Shown here in pieces: positions 23,958 through 60,400 of a stretch of 64,000 bases of DNA. Numbering within the stretch: position 1 is the stretch's first letter; each line of letters starts with the position of its first letter. The notes under the pieces were generated by a model. That model was not told where the DNA came from, searched no databases, and saw only the letters and a list, made by a program, of their open reading frames with translations. The position numbers were made by a program, and so were the translations under genes. Origin of the DNA: Bolinopsis microptera (taxonomy: Eukaryota; Ctenophora; Tentaculata; Lobata; Bolinopsidae); contig NC_087079.1 of the NCBI RefSeq assembly GCF_026151205.1, positions 622,001 to 686,000 of the forward strand, written 5' to 3'.

Positions 23958-46498
<22,541 letters not shown>

Positions 46499-51990: not shown

Positions 51991-54725
51991 ATGAGATTAA
52001 CATCATCCCTCTTCTTCTTTGGAGTGGTTGCAGTTTGTACTGCTGATCTTTACTACAATCCTGCTTCACCTATAGAGGAGGTGGCAGTTTGCCCTGGGGA
52101 AGGTAACTCTGACATTCAGTTCATTTACTGCAATAGATCATAAGTTTGTTTCTGAAGTAACATTGAAATTGTATTCCAATTAAATTTTCTTTTTTTGAAG
52201 TCGCTAGAAGTCCATTCCTATCCTCAGGTCCAAGATACCAAGACTACAAGTGTAACCATGACAGTACTCACAGAGTCTGTGCTAGGCTTGTAGATAATAC
52301 TGATGGGAAATGTGATGAACTGTCGTGGGATGATGAAGACCCTGACCACCCTAGGAGTTTCTGGGATATCACTAGTAAGAACATTTGTTATTTTAATACT
52401 TTCAACACTACACACAACACATTTGTTATTTTAATACTTTCAACACTACACACAACACATACGATATAAATTATATTACAAATAATTTGAGCTCACTATG
52501 TATCAGGGCGTAAATTTAGATATTTTCATAGTACTCGTTTAAATCACTAAAATGTATCTTTTTTTGGGTATATTTTTATCGTCGAAACGTGTAACAGATG
52601 TTAGAATTTATTTATTTATGTGTGCATCATTGTAGACCAAGAACGATGGAACTGGAAGGACAAGGTGTGTGCAGCTCCCAACCCTGGTGACAGCTGGTGT
52701 ATCTGTATGTGGGCTACTGCTAGTCTTATCAAGAAGGTTAGTTTCACTTTCACTACTGCTAGTCTTATCAAGAAGGTTAGTTTCACTTTCACTACTGCTA
52801 GTCTTATCAAGAAGGTTAGTTTCACTTTCACTACTGCTAGTCTTATCAAGAAGGTTAGTTTCACTTTCACTACTGCTAGTCTTATCAAGAAGGTTAGTTT
52901 CACTTTCACCACTGCTAGTCTTATCAAGAAGGTTAGTTTCACTTTCACCACTGCTAGTCTTATCAAGAAGGTTAGTTCACTTTCACTACTGCTAGTCTTA
53001 TCAAGAAGGTTAGTTTCACTTTCACTACTGCTAGTCTTATCAAGAAGGTTAGTTTCACTTTCACTACTGCTAGTCTTATCAAGAAGGTTAGTTTCACTTT
53101 CACTACTGCTAGTCTTATCAAGAAGGTTAGTTTCACTTTCACTACTGCTAGTCTTATCAAGAAGGTTAGTTTCACTTTCACTACTGCTAGTCTTATCAAG
53201 AAGGTTAGTTTCACTTTCACTACTGCTAGTCTTATCAAGAAGGTTAGTTTCACTTTCACTACTGCTAGTCTTATCAAGAAGGTTAGTTTCACTTTCACTA
53301 CTGCTAGTCTTATCAAGAAGGTTAGTTTCACTTTCACTACTGCTAGTCTTATCAAGAAGGTTAGTTTCACTTTCACTACTGCTAGTCTTATCAAGAAGGT
53401 TAGTTTCACTTTCACTACTGCTAGTCTTATCAAGAAGGTTAGTTTCACTTTCACTACTGCTAGTCTTATCAAGAAGGTTAGTTTCACTTTCACTACTGCT
53501 AGTCTTATCAAGAAGGTTAGTTTCACTTTCACTACTGCTAGTCTTATCAAGAAGGTTAGTTTCACTTTCACTACTGCTAGTCTTATCAAGAAGGTTAGTT
53601 TCACTTTCACTACTGCTAGTCTTATCAAGAAGGTTAGTTTCACTTTCACTACTGCTAGTCTTATCAAGAAGGTTAGTTTCACTTTCACTACTGCTAGTCT
53701 TATCAAGAAGGTTAGTTTCACTTTCACTACTGCTAGTCTTATCAAGAAGGTTAGTTTCACTTTCACTACTGCTAGTCTTATCAAGAAGGTTAGTTTCACT
53801 TTCACTACTGCTAGTGTTAACAAGAAGGTTAGTTTCACTTTCATTACTGCTAGTCTTAACAAGAAGGTTAGTTTCACTTTCATTACTGCTAGTCTTAACA
53901 AGAAGGTTAGTTTCACTTTCACTTTCACTACTGCTAGTCTTATCAAGAAGGTTAGTTTCACTTTCACTACTGCTAGTTTTATCAAGAAAGTTAGTTTCCC
54001 TTTCAGTTATACTTCGTAAATTCTATCACATTAGTACTTTTTTGGCCAACTTAAATGATTTATGTTAAGTTTAAACCATGTAAGAATAATATTGTATTAA
54101 TGTATAATGTATAATGATTAATGTATATATGTCTAATATTGCAGGCTAAGTCTGGTTAAAACTGCTCTTCAAGATCATGAACAAAATATCCAAAACTTTG
54201 TTGTGATTTGAACCTTCCAACCTGCAAGGTTATAATTATAAAGTTGCACAAATAAGGGGGGGGGGGGGGGGCAAATAACAAAGTTATCCTGTTTCAACTC
54301 CCTTCAATTTGTAAGCACATCGGTAGCCTTTCACAGCCTATCACAGCCTTTAGCATTTTTAATTATTATATCAAACTGCTGCGCACCGTATAAATAGATT
54401 ACCAATTACCATCTACATGCAAATAAAATATGGGTAACTGTACCTCGGAAGTAAAAGTATGCAATATCATTAATTGCACTCTTTAAGTTCATCAAGATGG
54501 AATTTACGCCGACGTGAGGTGAAAGAGATATGATGTAAAAACGAACATATCAAATTAAAACATGTAAACTTAATAATAATAACCTAACTTAATCAGGTTG
54601 GGTGCGACAATGTTCACATCCGCTGTGAGGCTACATCAGTAAACTATATGATGGAGAAATACACAGATGGCGGAGTGGACCTGGCCGATGCTAAATTGTG
54701 TCTCCAGAAGAAATGTCTGCAATAA
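51991..54725 (+). CDS. DUF2237-like secreted Cys-rich protein, copy B
   Basis: Exons 51991-52102, 52228-52374, 52636-52736 and 54597-54725 give 162 residues if the first donor after exon 3 is used. The signal peptide is MRLTSSLFFFGVVAVCTA. The core repeats the copy A pattern: CPGEG, THRVCARLVD, FWDIT, NPGDSWCICMWATASLIKK and VGCDNVHIRCEATS, ending KKCLQ. Exon sizes match copy A in phase throughout. Exon 3 is followed at once by about 32 copies of a 39-bp unit that repeats the exon end (TASLIKK) and its donor (AAG/GTTAGT). The first seven donors keep the frame and would add 0-6 units of 13 residues; a 1-nt deletion in the seventh unit puts later donors out of frame with exon 4. Confidence 0.78.
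52737..53998 (+). repeat. 39-bp minisatellite made of an exon end plus splice donor
   Basis: About 32 units. Each contains GCTAGTCTTATCAAGAAG followed by GTTAGT, the last codons of exon 3 of copy B and its 5' splice site. The unit at 52971 is 38 bp (one T lost), and one near 53906 has an extra CTTTCA. Similarity is near-perfect in the centre and lower in the last few units (ATTACTGCTAGTCTTAACAAG variants), as expected for a slippage-grown array. The 482-codon frame through it is a by-product of stop-free units. Confidence 0.95.
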
Positions 54726-54726: not shown

Positions 54727-55934
54727 ATGATGGGAGTATGGACTTGGTAGAGTACTAGCATGCTTTAATTTTGGGTTTAGTTCAAATTATGAGAATCCAC
54801 TGAATCTTTGAATTCGATTAAATTTCCGGTTTTCAAATGTTGAGACCGACACTGGTAATTGTTTTTAGTTTACAATTTTGCAGTTGATGTAACTGTTATA
54901 AGTACAGACATTACAGAGTACAGAGTTTAATATATATTTTTTAGATGTAATTGTAAATTAGATTTTTCTTAAATTGATTATTATATTTTTGTTGTGACCC
55001 TTTGATAATCTGTGACCTTCAGATTTTTTCTTTTTTCAATTTCGTGCAACTGATCTGTGACCATCAGATGTTTTTTTTTCAATTTCTCGCAATTTGTTTT
55101 GAATGAATTTTAATTTTGGGATGGACTTATTTGAAGTTTGATTAATGCTATTTGGGATTTTAATGAAATTAAACTGTTTTAAATTTCAACTTTTTCTGTA
55201 TCATAGGTTATATTATCAAGTTAACTTCGTCATATGTAAACAGATAATGCGTCTAGATCTGAATAATTACACTCTGGCTGATTACCAAAGCAAGCAGATG
55301 CTACGGATAGTAACCATGGTAACTAGTAGTGTAACCATGGTAACTAGCAGTGTAACCATGGTAACTAGCAGTGTAACCATGGTAACCATACTTGCTTTGG
55401 TTGAAAGTGTTAACCAAGTTGGTTTAATAAAACATATCTTAAGAATTAATACACAGGGCAGCTGTTAATCGAACTTTTTAGTTTATAGAATAGAATATGA
55501 TAAACGCCTTTGTTAAGTTGTTTATTTATATAATGATAAAAAGCACTTTATATGCTACTGGAGTATAAGTAAGTAATTGTTATTTTCCGCATGCAACGGA
55601 CTGTGTGAGGTTATTTTAATGTATTGAATTGGTTGGAATTCTTAGCTCCTCTATGGATGAATGAATGGGTAAATAGATGAATGAATATATATATATAGGT
55701 ATATAATATAAGTCACGAATTGGTCGGCATTTCCGTGACCCAATCAAATCTGTGCCGACTTTTTTTATATAATCTCAAAACTTGACTTTTATTGTTTATA
55801 AAAAATGTAACATAACCATGTATCAACAATCTTTACTCTCATTCTCAAATCTCATCACTCAACTAGACACTAAACCTCACTGTTAATTGTTATATTTAAC
55901 TAGACACTAAACTTCACTGTTAATTGTTATAGCT
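54727..55934. other. Spacer between copies B and C
   Basis: Four copies of a 21-bp unit containing GTAACCATGGTAACTAG lie at 55310-55386. No exon recognised; the 107-codon frame across them is not supported. Confidence 0.5.
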
Positions 55935-57444: not shown

Positions 57445-60400
57445 ATGGTGTTTGAACGACAAAAGGAGGCGTTTTTCGCTCAGTCTGCCCAAAAACAGCT
57501 AGTAGCCGCTTCAGGTAAATAATTATCACGACTTTAACTAAAATGTTTTCTAACGTTTGTAACTTGCCCGGTATTGATAGGGTTGGCGGGTTGCCAACCC
57601 CAAATCCCAATCAGCTAGAATAACCGACCTCACACCCAGGCTCACAATACAGCTGTGAAGTTGGAAGTGGTAAGTTCTACGGACTCTGTGCTTTCGGTGG
57701 TCTCCTCAGTTGTGGCCTCACTCACACTATTGTCGTGCCATTGGATCTTGTCAAGTGCCGTATTCAGGTAAACTGTGCATTCTATCGTGCTTGTTATTTT
57801 TTAGTTTCACTTGTATTTTTACTTATAAGTATCATAATTCATATAAATATAATATTTTTTTTGTATTTAAATATTTAACTGTTTATTCAATTTGTGGTGT
57901 TTGTTTTATTCTTAATTTTATCTAGATAGTTTACTTTTATCTATATTTGTACCTAGCTGGTTCATAAACAGCAAAGCACTGCAGATTAGAGATTACTAAT
58001 TCATTGTACTCTACTCTACTCTACTCTGTATTCTAATCATTGTAACGAATGTACTACCCTGCCTTATCTTTGTCCTGACGTGTATAATTGCTCTCAGTAA
58101 CTCAGTAATGTGTGTAATACAGTGCCTTCATACTAATTACAATTACATAAATGTTATCCACGTACTCAAATGAGTTGCTAATTATCTCCATTACATGTCT
58201 GGTTGCTATAACAACTATAAATTATATAAAGTAAGTATCATATGTCCACCCCGGCCCTGCTTTGAGTGTAATATTTTAAGTGCCAAATTATTGCTCAATA
58301 AAAATGTGTTACCACTTTAATGTACTTTAATGTATAATATATACCTGCTGTCTAATATAGTACCGTATATATAATATTAATATATACAGGGTGGCCCATA
58401 AGTGACTACCCACACGCAACCTCTTAATAACTCACGTAATTCGTCTCCAAATTGCACCAAAATTTCAGAGATTATAGATATGGGTCAAACTTAGATTTCA
58501 TGAAAGTTTCGTAAGCCACGCCCAATTACAGTGGGCGTGGCGTGACACTCCCTCTTTTTCACTATTGTCTTCATAAAATGAGAACGCTTGAAGCTAAGAA
58601 CTCAAAATTTTTGGCACACATTTGGCTTGATAATTGAAAACCTTTCCCAAAGTTTCAAGTTCATATATTGGTTAAAATATGGCTAAGTTATGACCATTTC
58701 AAAACTCATCGGATACGTGATCCGAGCACTCAGTCAGTGATCTCGTCACTTGGTTAATGGCCTGTTTGGCTCACATGCACCGCTTGATTGGTTGCAGCCT
58801 GCTTATGGGCCGGCCTATACAGCTGACTGCACCTAAAACGCTATCACACGAATTTATGGTGGTGTCACCATTTCAGGGCTTGTTAGCCCTGCTAGTCACA
58901 GGTTCCTTACAATCAATAAAAATGGTTCACTATCCTCCCTTTACTGCAGAACAACGATTGTTCGTCTACCTGAAGAAAGAAAATGGGGAGTTCTACCCTC
59001 AGATTAAACGACAATTTCAGATGAAATTCAACCGACCACCCCCTTGCCGGAAAAGCTGCTTTGACATTCATCACAAGATCAAGTTTACGTTTTCTGCACA
59101 CGATCGGCGAAGAGTCGGCAGAAGACGAACTGCGAGGACTGTAGAAAACATCACGATGGTTGTTGGTGACGTGATGGACACACCTAAGATTGGCACACGG
59201 AAACGAGCTCCTGCCTTAGACATCAGCAGAACCCTTCAGCGAATCCTAAAGCAAGACCTTTCTAACCGGGCCTACCGAATCACAAAGAAACACAAACTTT
59301 TGGACCGTGATTTCCAATCGAGGATAGATTTCGCCAACACATTCCTGTCCAAGCAGAATGTGGATCCCTACTTTGAGGACGAAATCTGGTACAGCGACAA
59401 GGCCATATAAACGGATATGCAACTCCCAGAATGCAATTCACTGGGGCTCTACTAGACCGGATGAAGTGGTGGAGAGAACGGCTTTTCCTGAAAAGGTCAC
59501 GATCTGGTTTTTATCCTAAAAATTTGTGTTTCCCTTTCTAGCAAAGTCATCATCGGTATCCAATCAAAGCCTAATGAACCTCATTAATACACGCTAACGC
59601 CTTACTCTTGATCAGATTGGGTGAATTTTGAGTTCTTAGCTTAAAGCGTTCTCATTTTATGAAGACAATAGTGAAAAAGAGGGAGTGTCACGCCACGCCC
59701 ACTGTAATTGGGCGTGGCTTACGAAACTTTCATGAAATCTAAGTTTGACCCATATCTATAATCTCTGAAATTTTGGTGCAATTTGGAGACGAATTACGTG
59801 AGTTATTAAGAGGTTGCGTGTTGGTAGTCACTTATGGGCCACCCTGTGACTGTATTAAGAACGTTCTCGTAGGGCACACTATATCATTCTTTTAAAATAA
59901 CAGCGAAGCTATTGTAATTACTATTACTCTTGTAATATCCTTAACGTATACACAAGTAAGTGGACGGCATGTTTAATGTTACATAGCACAAATTGTATAA
60001 TGTATTATATAACGCATTTAACTTAACCCATCTTTTTAAACCCTGTAACAGGTCAATCCTGACAAGTACAAGAGTCTTGGTAACGGGTTCAAGGTGTCCG
60101 TTGCAGAGGGAGGCATGAAGGCCCTCACTCTGGGATGGGCTCCAACCCTTGTAGGATACTCTATGCAGGGAATCGGAAAGTTTGGGTTTTACGAGGCTTT
60201 CAAAAACTTCTACGGTGGATTGATGGGAGAGGTCAGTCGCAGTTTTCATTATAACATTATGTATCTTGAAGTTTGGGAAATTGGGACGCGAAATTAATAT
60301 TAAGTCTCTTGTTTGATGCATACATAATACAAGTTAATAATTTTAATTCGTGCAAGTTAAGAATCTTAAAAAACGGTAAATATTAAATAAGTAATTTACC

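Follow-up and report, generated by a model that had tools for sequence, protein, structure and literature searches.

A minisatellite of tandem 5' splice sites at an exon end in Bolinopsis microptera, and similar arrays at other exon ends of its genome

The copy number of minisatellites varies between individuals, and the human gene IFI6/G1P3 reportedly carries one at an exon-intron junction, with repeat units that contain splice donors. The human IFI6 repeat unit is short. Two of its downstream units are reported to serve as donors (PMC4526556). In human segmental duplications, minisatellite expansion at exon-intron boundaries, with units of 30 bp on average, is described as shifting the exon/intron limits (PMC2812944), and tandem genomic duplication is named as an origin of new intron sequence (PMC4974935).

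Here we describe a minisatellite in a gene of the ctenophore Bolinopsis microptera, referred to as gene 2 in the following, and document the anatomy of this array, the phases of its donors and the recurrence of such arrays at other exon ends. It resembles the IFI6 minisatellite in that it straddles an exon-intron junction and in that its units carry a 5' splice site. The two cases differ in that IFI6 is a single gene in humans for which the use of several donors is reported, whereas the present array is known from genomic sequence and its anatomy recurs at other exon ends. With the human segmental duplications (PMC2812944) it shares the position at an exon-intron boundary; the arrays there are short (~4 units) and form novel introns or lengthen exons, whereas the one in gene 2 is long, belongs to an old intron and is probably intronic.

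What may be new is the frequency of such arrays in one genome; the same anatomy is already known from human IFI6. A literature search for earlier reports returned no genome-wide class of such arrays among the matches listed, and the words ‘tandem repeat’ and ‘minisatellite’ are absent from the main text of PMC12221973 and PMC10232365. One donor minisatellite by itself is a curiosity already on record. Should such arrays be as frequent as our counts suggest, this genome would be a natural experiment in splice-site choice, with many exons that are each followed by almost identical donors, from 3 to more than 100 of them, evenly spaced and in all three phases. It would then allow a direct test of whether splicing invariably prefers the donor closest to the upstream exon, and would bear on the birth of minisatellites and the lengthening of introns.

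Gene 2 and its 39-bp array

The window, a stretch of 64,000 nucleotides from contig NC_087079.1 (positions 622,001 to 686,000), contains gene 2 on its plus strand. Exon 1 (51991..52102) encodes a signal-like N-terminus and is placed by the open spliced reading frame and the GT-AG introns, exon 2 (52228..52374) by paralog matches; exon 3 (52636..52736) contributes its last 23 bases to the repeat unit, and exon 4 (54597..54725) follows the acceptor taatcag/ and includes the stop codon (a slash marks the splice junction in all motifs). The spliced coding sequence of 489 nt is open, encodes 162 residues and has GT-AG borders at all introns. Its product looks like a small secreted protein. A possible alternative acceptor, tattgcag/, read from sequence and translation, would instead add the short tail AKSG-stop (54145..54159).

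In a protein search of the genome, the only relatives of gene 2 are its neighbours, genes 1 and 3. Its W-C-x-C region is one that we take to resemble DUF2237, the label under which a sequence-only reading had placed the gene. This label found no support and was dropped: Pfam gave no family for genes 1, 2 and 3 at E up to 10, and the PF09996 (DUF2237) model has no match anywhere in the genome. A PDB sequence search returned chance matches only (E 1.4 and above).

Intron 3 lies at the identical site and in phase 0 in all three genes, and measures 163 bp in gene 1, 1860 bp in gene 2 and 221 bp in gene 3. In genes 1 and 3, both sides of the splice site between exons 3 and 4 are joined without insertion; gene 3 has a single exon in place of exons 2 and 3. 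Given that intron 3 is present in both neighbouring paralogs, the array grew inside a pre-existing intron.

This array is a minisatellite across the junction of exon 3 and intron 3 (52714..54005, plus strand), for which TRF reports a period of 39, 33.0 copies and 98% matches. The repeat unit consists of 23 exonic bases, that is, the last seven codons plus two more bases, and 16 intronic bases. From 52737 to 53990 there are 33 GTTAGT donors, every one of them preceded by AAG or AAA (AAR/GTTAGT in 33 of 33 units). Tandem 5' splice sites at the end of exon 3, as first noticed from the sequence, with an estimate of about 32 copies of the last seven codons and the donor, are thereby borne out. The first donor (AAG/GTTAGT, 52737..52742) is probably the working 5' splice site, as judged from an intron position and phase that agree with introns 3 of genes 1 and 3, and the 32 further copies extend over 52776..53995. 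The spacing of the donors is 39 bp throughout, save for one step of 38 bp (from 52971) and one of 45 bp (from 53906). Between the donors, 24 of 32 units are identical, the eight variants being units 5-7 and 28-32. The acceptor-like stretch TTTCACTTTCACTACTGCTAG, on which the sequence-only reading had not remarked, is found in 27 of 32 array units, where its role as an acceptor is putative.

When joined to 54597, donors 1-7 (52737, 52776, 52815, 52854, 52893, 52932 and 52971) are in frame and lead to the native C-terminus after 0-6 additional repeats of 13 residues, giving products of 162, 175, ... 240 aa. Translated joins of the later donors 53009, 53048, 53087, 53906, 53951 and 53990 to 54597 change the frame, and for the donors between 53087 and 53906 the change follows from the 39-bp steps; the 38-bp unit at 52971 puts the last 26 of the 33 donors out of frame. 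Both the in-frame set and the break had been predicted correctly. The repeat unit of gene 2 has no stop in the exon frame. We dismissed the open frame through the array as a sign of coding, because the 39-bp period is divisible by three, and most of the array is spanned by four long ORFs, two per strand.

Donor arrays at other exon ends

Two further exon ends in the window are repeated, both in a TBC-domain gene on its minus strand (RabGAP-TBC, Pfam E 4.3e-36). At the exon 27014-26837, the junction AACAGTAACCC/GTAAGTTATAA is repeated over 25711..26847 (minus strand; TRF and sequence), with 49 copies of GTAAGT or GTTAGT that are mostly 21-22 bp apart. At the exon 28385-28300, TGTAAAG/GTGAGC occurs three times within 28183..28306 (minus strand; from the sequence, TRF reporting just 28183-28286), with donors at 28299, 28269 and 28215.

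The genome searched is a 264.65-Mb assembly of 232 contigs, in which C1-C13 measure 15-26 Mb each and sum to ~258 Mb; this fits the published account of B. microptera, which gives 13 chromosome-scale scaffolds with 97.23% of bases and a 1n of ~254 Mbp (PMC10232365). Repeats on C11 and C12 are reported at 70-72% identity. Besides gene 2, we found 11 exon-end arrays in this genome, ten firm and one probable. The 12 that we compare comprise the three in the window, one case from thirteen 10-kb stretches picked by position alone (L025), seven firm cases found by motif and the probable one. They contain 3 to 117 donor copies each; the 3' end of the array is seen in four of the 12 only (gene 2, the two TBC exons and the EGF-like exon of L025), and the intron side is unread in the other eight. 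In L025, the repeated end, with 117 GTAAGT copies, belongs to an EGF-like exon, for which the Pfam EGF match is weak and under its cut-off (E 0.024-0.036). The same stretch has an intron between coding stretches (694-1346) that is almost wholly made of the 10-bp satellite ACATATTACT, from near the donor through to the acceptor.

For the cases found by motif, the 5' flanks of all 16 donor-motif arrays among the matches listed were taken, and gene identity played no part in this choice. The training set of the coding score was 5.7 kb of coding sequence from the window, and an exon was called where the score exceeded 12 at the array edge, a threshold that was fixed after the scores were seen. Among the matches listed, seven of the 16 arrays exceed it. 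Four of these firm siblings have a Pfam match: sushi-like (E 0.023), C2H2 finger (E 1.7e-5), WD40-like (E 0.0056) and homeodomain (E 2.7e-13). The remaining three gave no Pfam match and were read by eye as coiled coil, F5/8C-like and Ig-like. In the homeodomain case (L044, G000:C10:4506150-4506900), the exon is cut at model position 45 of 57, and the donor array behind it has a 35-bp unit; a further TAAGT lies 35 bp upstream, within the exon. L038, with a score of 4.3, is the probable exon-end array, L036 (11.2) was judged to be coding on the other strand, and no exon was found at the array edge in L030, L040, L041 and L042. In L033, L034/L046 and L045 the array filled the fetched flank, and these were left out of the 13 resolvable arrays.

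Tandem arrays are frequent in this genome, with 119 merged arrays occupying 40.5 of 194 kb. Genome-wide, AGGTDAGT triplets with gaps of 6-36 gave 2326+2923 matches vs 133+163 for the reversed motif, and CAGGTAAGT and AAGGTAAGT gave 149+282 and 186+243 matches, respectively, vs 0. These numbers are matches, not arrays. The 100 AGGTDAGT matches listed represent 7 arrays, and the CAGGTAAGT matches listed represent 9, so that, by rough extrapolation, there may be some hundreds of AGGTDAGT arrays in the genome, some of them not at exons. A more far-reaching proposal would be that minisatellites in this genome arise preferentially at 5' splice junctions, and that in hundreds of genes, including a homeobox gene, the exon end and its donor may have been amplified 3- to 120-fold into tandem U1 sites, with a copy number that could vary between individuals and tune splicing; we regard this as possible but doubtful.

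It is conceivable, if unlikely, that the donor arrays are a by-product of composition, that is, that many repeat units in this genome contain GT and AG and some of them lie beside exons by chance. Arrays also abound in the dinucleotide-matched permutation AGTDAGGT (1279+1248 matches vs 117+136 genome-wide), in which AGGT and GTDAGG are themselves present, so that the 18-fold excess of AGGTDAGT triplets over the reversed motif shrinks to only 2.1-fold over the permutation. Outside arrays in the 194 kb, the three 8-base motifs are about equal (AGGTDAGT 14, AGTDAGGT 18, reversed donor 18). Likewise, random placement would be expected, roughly, to put one array or so across a donor in a window of this size, and within our window three of 21 homology-supported donors are repeated vs none of 20 acceptors in a TRF array, which is not significant (p 0.12); TRF covers two of these three donors, the one at 28299 lying 13 bp beyond the TRF row and being counted from the sequence. 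The neighbourhood of the arrays argues against composition, however: a coding exon adjoins the 5' edge, on the motif strand, in seven of 13 resolvable donor arrays vs none of 12 controls (Fisher p 0.004, with the threshold set post hoc), or in seven of 16 vs none of 12 if the unresolved arrays are counted as negative (p 0.01). The controls were the 12 arrays listed on C1; with each motif scored in addition to the listed start, none of them exceeded 7.0.

Origin of the array and use of its donors

We consider it probable that the gene 2 array is a minisatellite that arose by tandem duplication across the long-established donor of intron 3, and that splicing uses its first copy and treats the remainder as intron. 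A short segment straddling this site would have been duplicated in tandem, presumably by slippage or microhomology. The donor consensus itself may have acted as the microhomology, as suggested by L039 and L044, where an AAGT-like stretch within the exon aligns with the donor of the following unit and the repeated exon part measures 29 and 34 nt. The first, 5'-most donor would go on splicing exon 3 to exon 4, and everything downstream, including the 32 donor copies, would be removed as intron. A duplication across a donor does not alter the first donor or its exon and so may cost little, and because the array downstream of this donor would be spliced out, it could grow in a nearly neutral manner. 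The array is probably harmless, since its first donor copy presumably still works. Near-neutrality does not by itself account for the roughly 2:1 excess of donor-motif triplets over the dinucleotide-matched control.

If splicing occasionally turned to donors 2-7, the protein would gain 13 residues with each step, and such minor use is possible. That the array serves as a functional, splice-selected segment of variable length, with 0-6 x 13 residues after the WCIC motif, is improbable, and the protein domain proposed by the sequence-only reading finds no support in the sibling arrays; the donor sink that it offered as an alternative is hypothetical. Seven donors do keep the native C-terminus, the unit lacks a stop, and two downstream units of human IFI6 are described as donors (PMC4526556). 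Yet both paralogs are without such a segment, the 38-bp unit takes most donors out of frame, and the siblings show no corresponding pattern. The first spacings of the 12 exon-end arrays are 39, 21, 30, 35, 44, 34, 31, 20, 41, 29, 32 and 35, of which three are divisible by three (chance expectation 4), and in eight of the 12 a stop is met in the next unit in the exon frame; in the TBC array near 28.3 kb this holds with a spacing of 30 or 54. Gene 2 alone is both in frame and open. This lack of a frame preference among the siblings fits the use of the first donor and speaks against a general coding role.

Equally improbable is a role as a multi-site U1 snRNP platform that makes splicing at the weak GTTAGT donor robust or protects the intron against 3' ends being formed too early: it would agree with the 33 intact donor hexamers and with the recurrence of arrays of three or more consensus donors in the genome, but array homogeneity alone can keep donors intact, and copy numbers from 3 to 117 give no sign of a target number. 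Finally, the gain of an intron by tandem duplication, with which the preferred reading shares the duplication itself (PMC4974935), is ruled out, since gene 2 gained no intron and its intron 3 is common to genes 1 and 3 at the same phase and site.

Acceptor-type arrays and other repeats

A duplication across an acceptor should cost more than one across a donor if splicing selects the AG that comes first behind the branch point. Genome-wide, TTTYCAGG triplets gave 184+107 matches vs 35+105 for the reversed motif, and our sample covers 12 of at least 17 arrays among the matches listed. Two of these 12 have an exon-start score above 12, namely L067 (19.3), which reads as an exon, and L068 (13.6), whose reading is ambiguous, and lower scores were obtained for L060 (10.9) and L069 (8.0). 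Exon starts are thus repeated too, at a lower rate than donors, in a sample that is small and less specific. One of the controls, L058 (G000:C1:25460870-25461620), has an acceptor-type array on its reverse strand, with CTAATCTCCCCTCCCCCAG repeated directly before an exon with a coding score of 37.

Within the TBC-domain gene, GTAACCCAG/GTAACT occurs four times at 28744-28807 (minus strand), just upstream of an exon possibly beginning CTCAG/GTAACGG, and acceptor and donor signals abut in this stretch. Elsewhere in the window, an ORF (58721-59410) is flanked on both sides by a CAGGGTGGCCCATAAGTGACTACC-like end, the two copies in inverted orientation; the whole element (58394-59845) looks like a DNA transposon and sits in the long intron 2 of a gene that we named SLC25A3-like by eye. 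The palindrome GTAACCATGGTAAC forms short arrays at 55310-55386, at 33311-33353 and in L017 (4813-5128). An (ACAG)n run of 399 bp (31860-32258) is perfect, with 100% matches in TRF, and L029 (925-4686) contains two adjacent arrays of 465-bp units with about four copies each.
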